Position numbers and translations under genes: made by a program
Shown: positions 284 to 14,500 of the stretch, piece after piece
Numbering within the stretch: the stretch's first letter is position 1
How the letters are laid out: each line of letters starts with the position of its first letter
The notes under the pieces: generated by a model
Database searches by the model: none
What the model saw: the letters and a program-made list of their open reading frames with translations, nothing else
Told to the model about the DNA's origin: nothing
Assembly: GCA_950295325.1 (NCBI GenBank)
Contig: OX485808.1
Span: forward strand, 33,188,527 to 33,252,526
Direction: 5' to 3'
Length of the DNA stretch: 64,000 nt
Source: Polytrichum commune
Taxonomy: Eukaryota; Streptophyta; Polytrichopsida; Polytrichales; Polytrichaceae

Positions 284-2139
284 TCATGCAATTTCAAGTG
301 GGGATGGGGTTAGTAGGAAATTGTTTATTGTACTTTTTAGGTGGACTCCAGCTTTATGTTTGAGCAAGAATAATGTTCTAGTGATGGGTGATCTAACACA
401 GTGGTGGTATTTAATGCGGGTGATTTCCTTAGAGCCCCCATATTTGGCGAGTATGAATTGAAGTAGACCAACATATATTTTCCCAATTCTACATTTATCA
501 TTGAGGGCGTTTTGTAGTTGTTCTCCAATGCATCTTAAATAGGCATTTTGTAGTGAGAATGCTTCGATTCCGAATAGATTGTGTGGGAGTTGTGTAGCGA
601 TGTTAGATGTGCATTTGGATATTCCGCATATCGTTTTGTGAAGTGCTATGATTTTTTTATCGAGTTGTTTGATAGCTGGTATGGAGTATGGCACTGCGTA
701 GAAGCTGTATGCTATTCCAGCACGTATGACTGTATCTGCCATGTTTATTTTTTGTTTCATAGTAGCTAGGCATGTTACAAGGGCTTGACACTGTTTTATT
801 AGTTTAGCTGTAGTGGTATTTATTTGTGTTTTGCATTTGAGTGATGGTGCAAGATTTATTCCTAGATACGTGTATGGTTCATGTTGGTTTAAGACTGGTA
901 TAGGTTGGTTTCTGTAGTTGATATTGGTAGATTGGATTAGGGCTTTAAAGGTTGTGGGATGAAGTTTGGATTTGTTTGGGCATCTAGTTATTGCGCACTT
1001 GGGTATTCCAAGATCCATTCCTGCCCATTCGCAGAATTTGTCTAGTTTGTTGAATTGTGTTTGTAGTGTCTCTAGTTTATTGGCGATTGCTGCTAGGTCA
1101 TCTGCATATGCTGCTGATGAGATTTTAATTTTAGATGTACCAAAAGTGTATCCATTATTCCCTTGTTGTAGCCATTTGAGGAGGGGTTCTAGGAATATGA
1201 TAAATAGATATGGGCTAAGGGTATCACCTTGTATTGTACCTCTTTGAATGGGAATTGGTAAGGTTTTACCGAAGTGTTCACCAGTGAATATTGTTGAGGA
1301 TTGTGAATATATGTTTCCTATGAGATTTATGGAGTCAGTGGGATATCCCAGATCTTTCATTATGGCTAAAAATCTGGCGTGATCAATGGAGCCGAAGGCG
1401 TTTTTGAAGTCAATGTAAAGGATATATATATCTTGGTTCGTGAGTCTTGCGTCTTCAAGCGCTGCGATTAATAATTGGATTTGTCTAGAAGTGCTGCTCT
1501 CTGCTCTAAATCTTTATTGATTATCGTGTAATATTTGGTATTTTTCTCCATACGCTGATAGGATAGAAGTTAATGTACTCGTGTAGAATTTATATATGGT
1601 GTTAGCTAGTGTAATAGGTCTATGGTTTGTTAGTTGTGATGGGTTACCTTTTTGTATAGTAAAACTGTTAGACTGGTTTTCCATGATGCAGGGATTTGTT
1701 TTTGTTTATAACAATGTTTAAAAAATAAGAAGAGTAATTTATGGAAGCATGGAGGCATGTTTTTTAGAATTGAATTGGGTATTTTGTCTGGGTCTGGGGG
1801 TTTGTTATTATTTAGGTTTTTAAAACAAAAGTCGTATATTTCTTGGTCAAAATACGTGTGTAAAGGGGTTTGGGGTTCTCCTCGTTTGTCAATGATGTAT
1901 CCATCTAAGTCATGCCATGGATATTGCCGGACTCCACATGTGCAGTGTAGTGGGTGTTTATTTTTATATTGGCACGTGGGAACTGTAGGACGGTTACTGA
2001 TGGATTGTTGCGTGTATATTTTTGTTGCGATGTCTTCTGGGTTAGTTAATATATTGTTTTGTCTATCAATGATGGAGTCCAGGAGTGAGGTTTCAATGTT
2101 ATTGAAGACTTTTCGATTTATCTTTTTGGGTTTTTTCAT
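284..2139 (-). pseudogene. LINE reverse transcriptase region (broken)
   Basis: The part at 1630-2139 holds the linker and the first RT blocks (IPASWKTSLTVLLYKK). A frameshift near 1646 moves the frame on to NPSQLTNHRPITL. An in-frame TAA near 1519 interrupts the next block. Motif A (YIDFKNAFGSIDH, with the catalytic Asp) lies at about 1380-1430. The open frame 284-1360 then carries motif B (QGDTLSPYLFIIFLEPLL) and motif C (AYADD), followed by thumb-like sequence with FCEWAGM. The order A, B, YADD is diagnostic for a reverse transcriptase. With one frameshift and one stop inside the domain, this copy cannot make a full enzyme. Confidence 0.85.
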
Positions 2140-2410: not shown

Positions 2411-2897
2411 TCATTTTCTCGCAAGTTTGCGTGGCAAAAACCCACCTTGTTGTGATGTTCTGTTCGTAAGGTTGGGTAATGGGTCTGCTTTACAGGTTTT
2501 TTCAATTATTTCTGAAATTTTGTATACAATGTGGTCGAATGTTGTACAGGCTTCCGCCCATTGATCCGGGCTTAAGTGTTGGTGGTTTTCAAGTAGGGTG
2601 GTAAGGGCTTTTATTTGTGCAGAGTTTTCTTCGAAGAATGTTATGTTGAATTTTTCGATGTTTTCTGGTGGTATTGGGTTTAGTATTCTAGTTGGTGACG
2701 TGTTTGTGGGGGGTGGGGATCTGGCTATAAGGGTGTTGTGGGGGATATGTAGTACAACTGGATAATGGTTTGAGTTTAGATTCATGTTTGTGTTTGTGGT
2801 AGAAATGAATTTGTTGTTGTCTGGTGAGTGAATGTGGAATCCATCTATTAGACTTGTTGATGTATAATTATAGCCTCCTTGCCTGGAGATGCTAGTG
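2411..2897 (-). pseudogene. LINE endonuclease C-terminus and linker (frame-shifted)
   Basis: The 124-codon open frame at 2411-2785 begins MNLNSNHYPVVLHIP, which matches the last endonuclease block (S-D/N-H-x-P, holding the catalytic His), with Asn where Asp is usual. The preceding bases, 2786-2897, encode a stretch with SLIDGFHIHSP in a continuing frame, typical of the region between the GDFN and SDH blocks. A proline-rich linker towards the reverse transcriptase follows. The segment is separated from the upstream ORF by a frame change, so it is part of the same broken coding region. Confidence 0.6.
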
Positions 2898-4160
2898 TTA
2901 GTTGGGATATATTCTAGGTTGAGTGATGCGGTGAAAATTTTCCATTGGTAATCTTCTTCTTGTGGAGGGGGTGTTAATGTTGTTATTTTGTCTGCGTCTA
3001 AGTGCGATATCTCGGTTAAAGTCCCTACATAATGTATACATGTGATTGGGGTGTATAGTAATTTCGTTAGTGATTTCGTTCTTAAGGTGTGGAATGAGGT
3101 ATGTGTCTTCTAAGTGTGTAGGCATGTACATGTGTATGATTAGCCAAGGTATTAGTGGATGGTTATTTATTTTAATTATTTGTAGGTATGGGGATATATT
3201 TACTGGCGTGGGAATTTTTGTGATATTCCCAGAGAATGCATATTTCTTGTGGATAAGTGTGAGTAAGCCTCCTCTTCCGGGGGTATAAGACATTATTTGT
3301 TGTATGCATCTTGTGAGTGCATGTGTGTTGTTGAAAATGAATTTAAATTCCGGAAATAGGTTTTGTATGTATTTTGTAGATTTATTTGCAGTTAGTTTGG
3401 TTTCTTGGATATGTATGATTGCTGTGTTGTTTAGCGAGTTGTTTATTAGGCTTTGTAGGTTTGGTAATGATGTGTTGAGTGATGACGTATTCCATGTTAT
3501 TATGTTTGTTTCGTGATCGGTGTCGGTGTCGGTATTAATTCTTGGGGTTGGTGTGGAAGTAGCTGGGGGTAGGGGTGGGTGTGAATATTCGTTGATGTTT
3601 TCTAGGCATCGGAGTGCTTCGGTGATCAATTGATTTGGGAGGAAGGGAAATTTATTTTGAAGGGTGATTGGTGTTGGTGTAGTATCTTGGTTGCGAATAA
3701 ATTCATATATCTCTGTGTGTATTGAATTTTTTGGGTATATTATATCTTGATTGTTTTCTACAAAAGTTGTGTAGGGGTGAGGTGTTGATATATGCCTTTC
3801 GGGGGGGTTGGTGAGGTTGGCCAGTCTGATAATCAATGTGTTCGTCCATATGTTATTAAAGTGGTAATTTTGGGGTTGGACTAGTATGTTATTGCATGTG
3901 TTTATTGAGGGGTGGATGGTGATGATTAGAGCGTATAGCATATGGGTTAGTGGTGATTGCCTTTGTGTTTGGATATATTGATGTAGATGCGGGTAGGTGG
4001 TTATTGCTTGAGGGTGTAATGGGTGTGTGTTTTTTAGTATGGGGCCAAATGTGTTTGCTATGTGTTGGTATTCAGGTTGTAGTTTTATATTGTTTGGAAT
4101 GAAGTAGATGTTGGCTCTTTTTTTGTATGTAGCAGGGTATGTATGTAGGATGTTAGGCAT

Positions 4161-4187
4161 TGGTCCGGGGTTGGGTTCTATGTCCCC
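4161..4187 (-). other. 2A-like ribosome-skipping motif (GDIEPNPGP)
   Basis: The minus-strand codons read GDIEPNPGP, preceded by the leucine-rich KLELLKC. This fits the 2A consensus D-(V/I)-E-x-N-P-G-P, in which the bond between the last Gly and Pro is not formed during translation. It sits about 102 residues from the ATG, ahead of the endonuclease, the place where 2A-like motifs are known in some animal and trypanosome non-LTR elements. Skipping activity here is inferred from the motif only. Confidence 0.8.
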
Positions 4188-4435
4188 GCATTTTAGCAAT
4201 TCTAGTTTGTTAATAAAGTAGTATCCGTGGGAATGGAGTGTTTTTGGATTTTTTATGTTTGTTTTTAGATATATTATGATTGTGAACTTGGTTGTAGTAA
4301 AGAGGTTAGGTATAGCGGGTATGATGTTTTCTATTTGTTTGGGTGAGAAGTGTGAGTTTGTATTTTTTATAGATTTTTGGCTTGTTATTGAGTTAGGTCT
4401 CCAGTTATCTATGAAGTGGTATGTGTTATTATTTG

Positions 4436-4461
4436 TGTGGCGAGGCCGGTAGGCCGAGGCC
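4436..4461. repeat. 26-bp GC-rich repeat, copy 1 of 2
   Basis: A GC-rich island in otherwise AT- and GT-rich DNA. The same 26 bases recur exactly 300 bp away at 4736-4761. The core GGCCGGTAGGCC (4444-4455) can fold into a 4-bp hairpin. On the minus strand it overlaps the ATG of the 2A-containing ORF. It may be part of a repeated LINE 5' untranslated or promoter unit, which is inference. Confidence 0.7.
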
Positions 4462-4735
4462 ATTGTATCTTTTGGGTGAGGTTGGTATTTTGAATGAGGG
4501 TTTAATAGGTATTTGAAATAGGGTTTGTGATGGTGTTTGATGTTGAGGTGAGGTTTATTTAAGGTGAGTAGTTTATATTTATTTTTTGTAAATAAATTAG
4601 GTAAGGCAATTATTGTTTTTTGTGTAGTTTTTGGGAGGTAGTGTATAGGTTTAGTATGTTGGTGGGTAGGCTTTGTGATTGTGTTAATGATAGGGTTGAG
4701 GGAGTGGTAGTGTATATATCGTGTTAGTTTTATTT

Positions 4736-4761
4736 TGTGGCGAGGCCGGTAGGCCGAGGCC
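4736..4761. repeat. 26-bp GC-rich repeat, copy 2 of 2
   Basis: Identical over 26 bases to 4436-4461, including the GGCCGGTAGGCC hairpin core, with a spacing of exactly 300 bp. The DNA between the two copies does not look clearly repeated by eye, so the element itself rather than a 300-bp tandem unit appears conserved. Confidence 0.7.
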
Positions 4762-4888: not shown

Positions 4889-6594
4889 GGTAGGGTTTCA
4901 TTTTTAGTATATATTAATAATTTAATAATGTTTTTTATTTTTAGTATATAAATATACTATAAGTAATTTATAATTGTACGCCGCCGGGATGTTTGTCGAA
5001 ATTAGTTTGTCAAGTCCATATTGTTTTCAATTTCCGATATGTCCGGATGAGCCGCTTCGATAGCATCCAAGGTAATCTTCATTTGCCTTTGAAGGAGTTG
5101 TATTTGGAGCTTGGAATTCTTGTTTGACTCCGCTTGCACATGGTCGGCATAAACTTTTGCCTCTTGCACAATCTCACCTTTAAGGTTCACCATTTCCTTT
5201 CGTATTTCATCCGTCCCATTTTTTACCGCTGCTTCTACCATCTTGTTGAGATCTTTGTTGGTGATGTTTTGGTGCGGTCCATTCTCCAGAGCTTGGATGG
5301 TGTTTGCAAGTGCGGTGTTCACGTCTGAAAATTCAAGTCTAACTAGCTCTTCTTTACTAGGTGCATTTATTCCGTCTAGACTTTTTGGATGGGGGATAAA
5401 TTCAACATATTTACCAAATATTTTTTCATTTTTCTTAACAAATTTCTTGTAGACAAACGAGTTGAGGCATTGGACATTGCATGAGCCCGTATGCTTCCCG
5501 TTCTCAAGTCTAAAGTAAAAACTGAGAACATTTAGTTCTCCCATGCATTTTCGGATTCCTTCTTCGATTTGCATGGTTGTTTTTACCTTATTGAGGTTAC
5601 GGGCAATTAGAATGAGTGCATTCTTTCGGGCTTTATCATCTTCTGAGAGTTTTTCGTTACTTGCAAAGTTTACATCTACTATTTCATTGAAAAACGAAAG
5701 TTTGAGTGCTTTAATTCTTTTGGCTTCTTCTGGAGAGGGTGCTTTAATCCAAGCAAACTCTGCATCCGCCGATTTTTGCACATTCGTTATTTCAAAGTCA
5801 AGGCCTCGTCGAAATCCATCCCCAACTATTTCTACAAACAAATCATAGCATTCTTTACCCTTGATTGACGGGGTTGTGACTTTGATGGAGAGCATGGATG
5901 CAATTGCAATGGTATCAAAGGATTTACACACTTTGCCTATAGCATGTGTAAATTGGCCAAGCTTGAGGATGAAAGGTCTCAATCCACAGAGAAGGCCATA
6001 TCCATCCATTTCAAGGTTTTTAAGGTGGAGTTTAATAATTCCACTCCATCTTTTGGTCCCATGAATACAAAGGACAGCTATGGGCTCTCTTAGGACTTCC
6101 CCGACCTCTATCCTCATTGTTTTTAGTCTCTCCTTTGTTAAGTTGAGTATCACATCTCTATCCAATTCTATTTTTTCAATTTCAAAATGGATAGATATGT
6201 GATAGTCCAAAGCAAATCCATGGTCACCCACTTCCACATCTGAAGGAATGTGCACTATTAGAAAATCATGACCAAATCAACAAAGAATCAACAGATCTTT
6301 GTCGATCCGGGCACTGCAATGACCGATTTCACTGATTTTTGAATTTTTGTAAAAATCAACAGTTTACTGCCTACATTTTTGTTGATTAGAATAGTACAAT
6401 GACCAAATCAACAAAATTTTAGTAAATGTGAAATCTTTTTTGAATCTTTTTTGAAATATTCTAGGATCTATTGGAATATTGTAAAATCTTTTTAATTTTT
6501 TGCAATTTATGGACTTGTAAGTGTATGGGTATGGAAATAATTACGAATTCAAAGGTGTTTAAATATTATAAATATTATATTAGTTGATAGTTAA

Positions 6595-6910
6595 TTTTAT
6601 ATATATTAATATATTAATATGTATAATATGTATATAATATATGTAACATATAATATATATATGTATATATATGTCTGTATATATATATGTATATATGTAT
6701 ATAATATATGTATACAATATATGTAACATGTATGTATATAATATATAATATATAAATATGTATACATTTACAGTAAATATATACAGTATATATTTACTGT
6801 AATTATATACTGTATATATACTGTAATTATATAATGTAATTATATATTGTATATATTTACTGTAATTATATACTGTAATTATATACTGTATATATTTACT
6901 GTAAATATAT
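6595..6910. repeat. AT-rich simple repeat with tandem tactgtaattata-like units
   Basis: Almost pure A/T sequence of ATAT and TATGTATA units, with several repeats of a unit like ctgtaattatatactgtatat towards the right end. It forms the left core of the CACTA-like element. No coding potential. Confidence 0.8.
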
Positions 6911-6984
6911 ACATCAAGTAGGTAGTAAAGAGAAATTAGTGGCCTTATTCTAGAAAGGTTTAAAACACTTCGTTTATATCATGT

Positions 6985-7215
6985 GTGATGTGATGACCTA
7001 GTGGTTAAGGCACATTTGTGGGTATCACTAGGTGCAAGGTTCGATTCATGTGGCCGACACCTTCGGCCTTGGCTCTGCCACCTATGTGAGTGGTAGGTAG
7101 TCTATACTTGTAGGTGACGTATATCTTGAGGGTTACTTTGGAGGGGTTAGGAATTGCAGATCTGACATTTATTCATTTTTTATTTTTTAATGTTATATAT
7201 ATATATATATAATAA
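6985..7215 (+). repeat. tRNA-derived SINE inside the CACTA-like element
   Basis: A polymerase III A box (tgacctagtggttaagg, about 6994-7010) and a B box (ggttcgattc, 7038-7047) are spaced as in a tRNA, followed by a tRNA-unrelated body and an AT-rich tail with a TA repeat. The stem and anticodon arms of a real tRNA are not intact, so it is a SINE and not a tRNA gene. Confidence 0.75.
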
Positions 7216-7823
7216 GTTTTTTTTTAAAAATATTTTTGTGACCATATCAACAGAAAAAATCAACAAAATTGTGTTACATCATGTCCAGGTCAACGCGTCC
7301 TAAGTAACAACCGCGACCAACGCCTTTCTGTTGATCCGGACGCAAAATTTTCTACTAGTGCTGGGTGAGATTGTAGTGCATTCCCTCCTTACCATCCGTT
7401 CGTATGGAAGGCCACTGTTCTTGGGCAACGAACGGAAATGAGGGAGATGACTCCACCATTTCATGTGCTTCAGACTCACACATATTTTTTTTGACTAACT
7501 CAGTGAAAGAAGGTGTTTGAATGAGAGGCATGTTGGCAAATTTTGCAATTGTGTTCATAGCTTGAAAACCAAGCCAATAGGGGGGGGCGTGTTCTCTCAG
7601 TGGGTGCTATTCCTTTAATTTTTTTTTGACTTGACAATACCACAGCAAGCACTGGACATTTTCCACTTGTAGAATCTATATTTTCATTTTCAAACAACTT
7701 ACGGGATGATGAGGTTGGAGTGATGGTTGCCATTCTGATATAAGCAAAGCAAACAAACGTTTTGTACTTTAGTTTTGAATGAGGTATACTTCTTATTTTC
7801 TTTCCTCTAATTCTTTTCCACAA

Positions 7824-11454: not shown

Positions 11455-11514
11455 TTTGTCGTGAGAGAGATAGGTCCAATTGATTTATGCAAAAACAACA
11501 ATAAGAGAGATAAG

Positions 11515-14500
11515 ATGGAAAAAGAGGGAGGTATAGGATCAATTTTCAAATTCACGGGCAAGAACTTTAACCTGTGGAAACACCAACTTCGAATTGCGCT
11601 GGATGGAAGAGAAATCTTCGCAATAGTTGATGGAACCGAGAAGCTAGCCGATGCCAAAGACAAAGAGGCGTGGAAGAAGAAAGATAACCTTGCAAAATGG
11701 ATCATCACCACATCAGTGGATATGGAGCACCTCAGCATGATTGTCAACTACATAACATCAGCAGAAATGTGGGAGAGGTTAGTTTCCATTCATGAGCAAG
11801 TATCAGCTAAGAGCATGTTCATGTTGATACAACAATTTGTCGACTACAAATTCTGCAAGGGAGATAGCGTTGTTGCGCATATAGCAAAAATTGAGATGAT
11901 GGCTCAGAATCTTGAAGATATTGGACAACCAATGTTAGAGAATCAGATTATTAGCAAATTAATTACAAGTTTGCCAAGTGAGTATAGGCATGTGCTTACC
12001 GCCTGGAAAAGTATGCCAGCAGAATAGAAGACCAGGAAGACTCTGATTATGAGAGTTTTCGAAGAAGAAGCCATGAACAAGATGATCAAAACAAGAGAGA
12101 GCGAAGAAACTGATAGTGCATTGTTAGTAAGAAATAGGAAAAGAGACGAACACACACGAGCAGACACAGACAATAAATATAATAGTGAGCGCATCAAAGA
12201 ACTGAAGAAAAAGTCTAGATGCCATAACTGCGGAGAGATCGGGCATTGGTGGCAGGATGACATATGTTCAAAGAAAACTAACAAGAAATATGGACAAAAG
12301 GGACCTGAAACAAGCAGGAGTGTAGCAAGAGCCATAGAATCAAAAGATACCGTTGTTCTTGTCACACAGTCGGTGCTGCGAACCCCTTTATCAGAAGCAC
12401 TAATTGCAAAAGACAACAGTGAAGAAGTCTAGTATGCTGATGCAGGAGCAACAGAACACATGTTAGACAATCGTGATGCATTCATAAACTTCAAGGAAAT
12501 ACCTAAGGGTACTTGGCCAGTAGCCATTGCAAATGAACAAAACCTGTGGGTATTAGGAAAGGGAGACATCAAGATCAAGAGAAGAGCACATGACCAATGG
12601 CTAGATGGAACTCTACATGATGTCCTATATATTCTTGATCTCAAAACTAACTTGTTTTCCGTTGGAAGAGTTGCTGACAGAGGAGTAGTCACTATTTACA
12701 GGAAGAACACTTGTCAAATGATAGGTGACAATGGATATGGAGACATATTGTTGACAAGAATACGCACAGGGAGCAGTTTATACAAATTGCAGATGAAGGC
12801 AATTGTTATCAATGAAAACACATCATGCGCCTATCAAGTTTCAACCAGAGCATCTAAAGTACATCCAATTACAGAGACTACTGAGAATAACAGCAAACAG
12901 GGAGAGAAACAAGGAGAGCAAACAAGGAGAGAAACAATATTGAGTTATGGCATCATCGCTTTTGTCATATCAACTCTCATACACTACGTCAAACTGAGAA
13001 AGCAGTTCATGGGATGACAATACAAGATAAAAGGACTGACAAATTTTTTTGCGAAGGATGTGTGCTTGGTAAACAACAAAGAAACACTTACCCGGCACTT
13101 ACGGAGAAGGAACGGGACACTGCACCTGGTACGTACTTCCACATAGACTTGTGAGGCCCCATGAGTACTACATCTTTGGGAGGAGCGTCTTATTTCATGC
13201 TGTGCAAGGATAACAACACAGGGTACATGGTCATTTTCTTTTTGAAATCAAAGTCAGAAGCTCTAATATATTTGAAACAATTATATTCATTGATGAAACA
13301 ACAGTTTCAGATTGATATTCAAAGGATTAAGACAGACCAAGGAGGCGAGAATAAGAATCATCAATTTAAAGCATACACACAAGAGAAAGGCATTATACAT
13401 GAGTTTTCAACTGCATATACATCAAAACAAAATGGTTTCATAGAACGCAGCAATCGAACCATTGTAAAAGCCGCAAGAAGTATGTTACATTCCAGAGATT
13501 TACCTCTGACCCTTTGGGCTAAAACAGCTAACACATCAGTGTTTGTATGGAATCGAACTGTTAGCAAACAACTTTCCAATACTACTTCATTCGAACGATT
13601 GTTCCAACAGGTGCCTGACGTATCTTATTTTTGAGCTTTCGGCAGTTTTGCTTATCTGCACATTCCAAAGAAGCAGAGAACCAAATTAGATGCTAAGAGT
13701 CAGAAGCTTATACTAGTAGGGTATGATCAAAAGGGGAGAGCATACCAACTTTGGAATCTAGGTACAAAGCAAATTCATGTTGGAGTTGATGTTATTATTC
13801 ATGAGACTTTGGGTATTTCAATTGGAGACACCAGGTCTAAATACACTGAACCCTCTCTTGAAACCATTGTGGTTACTATCCCAACTACTCATGCTATGCC
13901 AGTTGCACCCATTCATATTGCACATCCACCGACATCAAACGAAAGACTGAGTGTCAGCATGCCGTTGTTAAGTGAAGGCTCAAATCACATACACACCAAT
14001 CATATACTCCAAGACTCAACTCAAGAGCAAGGTACACAGTCTGAAGTAAATTCCATACCTGTAGATTTTCCAGTTGACACCCTAGCAGATATCCCAGCAG
14101 AGCATTTATAGGGAGAGAATACTGAAACTGAACCACAAGGAGAGATCACATAAACACCATTAGAGGGAGAGTTTATTGATCAATCGCACCTTAACCTTCA
14201 ATCACCATCATCAACATCTACATCTCAATCCAACAGGTATGAAGATGATCACCGAAGTAATGAAGACAATCACTCAGACGCAAAAGACATAGAGGTTAGA
14301 CTCAAACCTCGAAGCCGACATTCACCACTCAGATATGGCGATTGGGTTAAGTATGATGACAATAGAAGTAATACATGATCTGCTGCATACATTGCCACAA
14401 AGTCAGAACGGATTCATGAACCCAAAACATACAAGGAAGCAATGCAATCATCACATGCTCAACAGTGGAAACAAGCCATGGCCAAAGAATTTACATCTTT

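Follow-up and report, generated by a model that had tools for sequence, protein, structure and literature searches.

Motifs of the 2A type are known ahead of the endonuclease and reverse transcriptase (RT) of sea urchin and trypanosome non-LTR elements. The locus considered here raises the question of whether a LINE family in a plant genome carries such a signal of its own, and what the signal would do there. In a six-frame reading of the window (the whole 64-kb stretch of DNA that was analysed), the minus strand encodes a 2A-like block of 16 residues, KLELLKCGDIEPNPGP, at 4208-4161; the copy at 4184-4161 is the sole NPGP and the sole (D/G/N/C)(V/I)ExNPGP in the window. The first-pass annotation had reported an in-frame D-I-E-P-N-P-G-P block, naming no strand, at 4161-4214 and about 102 residues after an ATG. 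The block is present, on the minus strand; the span given for it takes in the 16 residues but also two upstream codons that do not belong to them, and the last P of NPGP is residue 101 when counted from the ATG at 4463, which has the sequence context gatacaATGGcc and opens a 521-aa frame ending at 2898. The features of the locus are as follows.

4161..4184, minus strand: 2A/StopGo core octapeptide DIEPNPGP, from the motif scan and genome-wide counts, with a predicted break between G and the last P
4161..4208, minus strand: 2A with its L-rich upstream context, KLELLKCGDIEPNPGP, by the context classes in section 10 of PMC12846837
4161..4463, minus strand: quickly evolving leader, read from ATG 4463, 101 codons to the last P
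4439..4458, minus strand: GC box CTCGGCCTACCGGCCTCGCC, 20 nt, conserved as DNA and found in all three frames relative to 2A
4739..4758, minus strand: the GC box again, 300 bp further upstream
2898..4463, minus strand: first open ORF2 piece, with leader, 2A, N-terminal domain and the beginning of the APE endonuclease (identified as APE from its likeness to the related locus L031)
2411..2785, minus strand: ORF2 piece with the end of the APE domain and the following linker
284..2139, minus strand: RT, in ORF2 pieces 2139-1630 and 1360-284 (PF00078 in 1360-284, E 1.1e-14)
5002..6255, minus strand: C-terminal part of ORF1, the upstream cistron

The ORF2 copy of the window is damaged, being spread over the frames 4463-2898, 2785-2411, 2139-1630 and 1360-284, and a match to later ORF2 lies just beyond the window edge (C6:33186564-33187064). 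The ORF1 piece at 5002..6255 has no Pfam match, and its single-sequence fold (mean pLDDT 35) was not used. ORF1 is split by an apparent CACTA transposon with ends at 6253 and 7360, as read by eye; this CACTA-like DNA element, judged on its ends only (CACTATTAGAAAA and TTTTCTACTAGTG), occupies 6253-7360. Elsewhere in the window, a Copia-type gag at 11461-12027 on the plus strand (PF14223, E 3.4e-29) belongs to an ordinary plant retrotransposon.

We consider that DIEPNPGP is probably (at roughly 0.8) a natural 2A (StopGo) signal of ORF2 in a large, two-ORF, Dualen-like LINE family of this plant genome, and that it would free the enzyme from a leader. What is observed is the motif, its copy number, its constraint as protein, the open frame ahead of it and its serial copies in frame; skipping activity, the mode of entry into ORF2 and the role of the leader are what we infer from these. 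Ribosomes would move into the ORF2 frame at the ORF1 stop itself or shortly beyond it, or would start from a later ATG inside the leader. A leader of about 80 to 560 residues would then be translated, which would have to stay open but whose sequence would be of little importance. At DIExNPGP the leader would be released, and translation would resume with the last proline to yield an enzyme of the order APE-RT-PCIF1-like-RNase H-CCHC/RPD with a fixed N-terminus. The 2A signal would thereby allow the fast-changing region between the ORFs to be translated without spoiling the enzyme.

The motif is abundant. In the genome searched (407.8 Mb, 64 contigs), D(V/I)ExNPGP is exactly encoded 268 times (141 + 127) and GDIxxNPGP 420 times (228 + 192), and each reversed pattern 0 + 0 times; these counts show that the motif is not due to chance. 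Retention was assessed with a query independent of the motif, the 56 residues after NPGP of one copy, for which the best 150 of 494 candidates were scored. In contigs C1 and C2 up to 64.47 Mb, the stretch in which every motif place was listed, 55 of 64 matches have a perfect motif at most 15 nt from the expected place. Among the other 86 matches, 20 loci (L078-L097) were chosen across the identity range with their motif state not known beforehand, and 15 of these have a perfect motif when read. A leader query, which itself contains the motif, gave 48 of 56 in the same C1/C2 stretch. Exceptions among the copies read have K at position 14 (p14), NPRP, NLGP or NRGP, or else GNIEPNPGP (L022) or a stop inside the motif (L065). 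The check proposed in the first-pass annotation, whether D-I-E-P-N-P-G-P is kept across copies, thus comes out positive for most copies examined, which bears out its claim that a LINE in a plant genome has a 2A-like motif in front of its endonuclease, here of the APE type.

Matches to the leader and 2A lie on all seven large contigs, C1-C7 (the best 150 of 739 candidates being scored), a spread that speaks against contamination. The host is photosynthetic, since contig C8 has an intact rbcL frame that matched Rubisco large chains in PDB over residues 7-475 of 475. With the RT query, six stretches of viral contigs fit a pattern, and none of them encodes a relative. Some pairs of copies have identical scores (C3:10652309/10736142, C5:26401503/26477180, and C6:30137254/30539720) and are perhaps segmental or assembly duplicates; the copy counts include both members.

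The anatomy of the element was read from three copies with long ORF2 frames: L031 (2625 aa), L032 (2924 aa), and L058 (at least 2836 aa; 2919 in the post-2A search). In all three, the order is leader, 2A, an N-terminal stretch, APE, RT, a PCIF1-like stretch, RNase H, and a C-terminal block of CCHC and RPD...EFTY. The N-terminal stretch between 2A and APE has no Pfam match. The APE endonuclease ahead of RT matches PF14529 (E 1.6e-4) and PF03372 (E 9e-3), both below the curated cut-offs; the APE motifs WN, IQETK, GDFNRD and SLIDG are present in L031, L032 and L058, and SDH(Y/S)PV in L031 and L058. RNase H is recognized by PF00075 (E 4.6e-13 in L031 and 3.6e-12 in L032). The three copies share CxxC-x9-H-x4-C and RF(R/K)PD...EFTY at the C-terminus, a block with no PDB match up to E 10 and no Pfam match. 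Rfam at gathering scores gave no match in six loci.

The RT of this family matches R2 (6e-25) better than L1 (5e-11) among PDB proteins, and an L1-type RT of the same genome, used as a control, scores in the opposite way (L1 2e-28, R2 1e-15); this points to the R2/Dualen side. On this PDB comparison, the RT falls outside the L1 clade, and the element does not belong to the normal L1 type of plants; the earlier label of plant LINE is therefore right as to the LINE and its genome, but not as to the usual plant type. The element is Dualen-like, and membership in Dualen, which we take to be the nearest clade, is likely. By description, it resembles the Dualen/RandI elements of green algae in having APE in front, an R2-side RT and RNase H, and perhaps in a C-terminal block that may be RLE-like; Dualen is described, in the portion of the source consulted, as encoding both APE and RLE (PMC4640811). 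The 2013 survey, as far as the portion consulted goes, gives 8 families of RandI for green algae, and for flowering plants no clades but L1 (233) and RTE (7) (PMC3747384), and the literature surveyed by title or abstract start holds no report of Dualen/RandI in a flowering plant.

A PCIF1/CAPAM-like domain lies between RT and RNase H (residues 1871-1966 of L031 ORF2, and also in L032 and L058). PF12237 recognizes it above cut-off (E 3e-10), and PCIF1 structures match only at E 0.12-0.3. Copies read have HPHN or HPPN at the position of NPPF in PCIF1, so the domain may be inactive. The literature surveyed by title or abstract start contains no report of a PCIF1-like LINE.

The core of the motif is strongly constrained as protein. 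In 455 pairs from 42 sequences, pN/pS comes to 0.12 for the core (bootstrap 5-95% 0.10-0.14), 0.25 after 2A, 0.66 before 2A, and 0.54 for the leader (158 pairs alignable without gaps), making the core the most constrained of the segments measured. The set comprises the 20 blind loci, 14 of L059-L077 (L064 dropped out), L002, L010, L020, L030, L032, L040, L050 and L058; nine of the 14 were chosen for lacking a perfect motif, so that bias runs against a low value for the core. The 20 blind loci alone (111 pairs) give 0.10 for the core, 0.28 after 2A, 0.87 before 2A, and 0.60 for the leader from 4 pairs only.

The 100 GDIxxNPGP places listed, out of 420, fall into 71 DNA haplotypes, with variation at synonymous sites. 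In the same 100 places, p14 is E in 60, Q in 19, H in 14, K in 5, R in 1, and Y in 1, and p15 is most often P (38) or T (29). According to section 14 of PMC12846837, motifs with H at p14 are above 95% active and E14Q is partly active. The upstream context LELLKCG ahead of D at p12 matches the L-rich class ending in (A/S/C)G, as that class is given in the parts of PMC12846837 consulted, and by eye the contexts ELLKCG, LILLSG and LLLLCG fit it as well. A StopGo role is likely.

The 2A frame is also kept open upstream. Between the ORF1 stop and 2A lie 821 nt in L031, 1646 nt in L058, and 1663 nt in L032, a gap in which the 2A frame has no stop in 273, 548, and 554 codons, respectively, with 19-39 stops per other frame; these three loci were selected for long frames, which biases a count of open gaps taken from them. 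In 29 anchorable subfamily-1 loci, chosen by leader similarity and, being related, not independent, 7888 upstream codons hold 53 stops in the 2A frame, compared with 587 and 497 for the other two frames; over 272 upstream codons, 15 of the 29 loci show no 2A-frame stop. Removal of the gap by splicing, considered as an idea only, is disfavoured by the 2A frame staying open across it. The gap reaches about 2.5-2.8 kb in L055 and L056, where it includes decayed copies of the 2A unit. The interval between the ORFs contains a variable count of decayed repeat units, similar to the monomers at the 5' end of some LINEs but internal to the element.

The same interval contains the GC box. The genome has 275 exact copies of CTCGGCCTACCGGCCTCGCC and none of the reversed control, and for 59 of 68 boxes on C1 a 2A follows downstream on the same strand within 3.5 kb (8, 36 and 15 in the three frames). 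Since every frame relative to 2A is represented, the conservation of the box is that of DNA or RNA; the box is possibly a promoter, ribosome-entry or RNA structure element.

The leader could itself be a functional protein, such as a targeting or RNA-binding peptide, which 2A would yield as a separate product. The moderate constraint among close relatives (the leader pN/pS of 0.54) is in keeping with this, but the leader is only 29% identical between L031 and L058 and 48% between L031 and L032, compared with 65% and 90% after 2A, its open length varies from about 80 to 580 codons among copies with a long ORF2, the GC box is read in differing frames, and the 98 residues of the L031 leader have no Pfam match. 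Such a function is thus unlikely. The first-pass annotation had proposed a leader of about 102 residues, begun at an ATG, with a hydrophobic FTIIIYLKTN that could act as a targeting signal. That stretch is seen, but among copies read it is restricted to subfamily 1 and close kin, and the targeting signal is unsupported; nor is the leader conserved as protein. Its start at an ATG is not general either: in 10 of 20 diverged loci (L035-L054), the sequence from the last stop, or from the limit of what was read, to the 2A adjacent to the enzyme lacks an in-frame ATG. These ten (L038, L039, L043, L045, L046, L047, L049, L050, L051 and L053) may be decayed.

The ORF2 frame overlaps the end of ORF1 by 22 nt in L031, 88 nt in L058 and 77 nt in L032. 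Relative to ORF1, L031 and L058 have it at -1 and L032 at +1; one frameshift rule therefore does not cover all three, and the idea of a fixed -1 shift into ORF2 was abandoned on account of the +1 that L032 needs. In L032, an ATG begins 5 nt ahead of the ORF1 stop, an arrangement like that of termination-reinitiation, and the first in-frame ATG after the ORF1 stop comes at about 120 nt in L031 and 105 nt in L058. Most subfamily-1 loci have more ATGs, at -97 and -28, the former in what we take to be a good plant context.

The ORF2 protein could instead begin by ordinary initiation at the ATG after NPGP (GP-MPNIL), with the upstream block serving as leader RNA. This would suit the ATG found directly after NPGP in most copies read and the diverged loci that lack an upstream ATG, but it would not account for a core conserved as protein while synonymous change is free, for an upstream frame that stays open, or for subfamily 3, which keeps the motif despite having L, P or I in place of M after NPGP. 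We regard it as quite improbable.

Equally doubtful is that the motif is a relic of a 2A that was active in an ancestor and is now unneeded, ORF2 working as a fusion with the leader. A lineage in which E has been replaced by K at p14 speaks for it. Six loci of this young lineage (L032, L059, L061, L070, L071 and L072) have DIKPNPGP, within GGDIKPNPGP, and open frames of 1076-2924 aa; L032, L061 and L070 are 99.8-100% identical over 501 bp and L059 about 97%, so the lineage has near-identical members and has spread while lacking the canonical E. Other loci with K at p14 are L062, L063, L067, L069, L082, L088 and L091, and the NPRP, NLGP and NRGP forms point in the same direction as the lineage. 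Either K is tolerated here or 2A is dispensable. The K lineage is the strongest point against an essential role of 2A, which may be dispensable, and is a natural experiment. Against a relic stand the core being the most constrained among the segments measured and a young group of six loci (L011, L016, L018, L019, L024 and L025) that retains DIEPNPGP; these are 99.2-99.7% identical over about 3.36 kb, which indicates that the family moved recently. By eye, L032 (C4:34917500-34927400) is recombinant-like, its ORF1 end resembling subfamily 3 (L057 and L101) and its ORF2 subfamily 1.

Serial 2A-like motifs, two or more in a row, mark subfamily 3. When the 100 listed GDIxxNPGP places are taken together with three of D(V/I)ExNPGP, 15 of 16 motif pairs less than 1 kb apart are in frame; of the 14 distinct spacings, 13 are divisible by three (P 6e-6). 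L103 has DIQPNPGP and DIHPNPGP inside one open frame, and L101 has its two motifs in different frames. At C1:66446877-66447859 (plus strand), four 2A-like motifs with Q, E, Y and H at p14 lie within about 1 kb, in one frame by spacing. That NPGP is a chance or purely structural peptide unlinked to translation, for which only the shortness of the motif speaks, is extremely improbable, given that the constrained positions are those of the published StopGo core, that H and Q at p14 agree with the tolerance reported in the consulted part of PMC12846837, and that serial copies recur in frame.

The 2A signal that we favour can be set beside known systems, by description only for the animal and trypanosome 2A LINEs. 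Like them, the family has 2A ahead of endonuclease-RT in one frame; it differs in its plant host, in an RT nearer R2 than L1, in the CCHC/RPD block at the C-terminus, in repeated units within the leader region, and in one subfamily with serial 2As. The viral StopGo L-rich class (motifs 2 and 6 in the portion of PMC12846837 consulted) shares the L-rich context, (A/S/C)G and then DIExNPGP, but has S at p15 where the LINE mostly has P or T, and belongs to viruses, in contrast to a cellular element. As in the 2A signal sequences of sea urchin NLR proteins, so far as these are described in the part of PMC4981915 consulted, an N-terminal-proximal 2A would set the N-terminus of the main protein; unlike those, the LINE lacks a conserved leader resembling a signal sequence. 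Within its consulted parts, PMC12846837 gives no natural use of 2A by plant viruses and describes cellular use as rare. No natural plant 2A is reported in the literature surveyed by title or abstract start, although earlier reports are possible.

Taken at its fullest, the reading is that a large, recently mobile, Dualen-like plant LINE family uses 2A skipping, partly serial, to cut off a disposable leader, and that this is the first StopGo native to land plants; from the sequences we lean slightly towards it. If so, LINEs of the APE+RLE type would be extended to a plant host beyond the recorded L1 and RTE clades, and the family would suggest a role for 2A besides making two useful products, that of insulating an enzyme from a fast-changing upstream region. 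Signals of the 2A type are standard tools of plant biotechnology. The family supplies natural variants of the motif and, if the reading is true, would provide a natural mutagenesis record of it, with E, Q, H and K at p14; plant ribosomes would then encounter StopGo naturally, from a native family numbering hundreds of copies.
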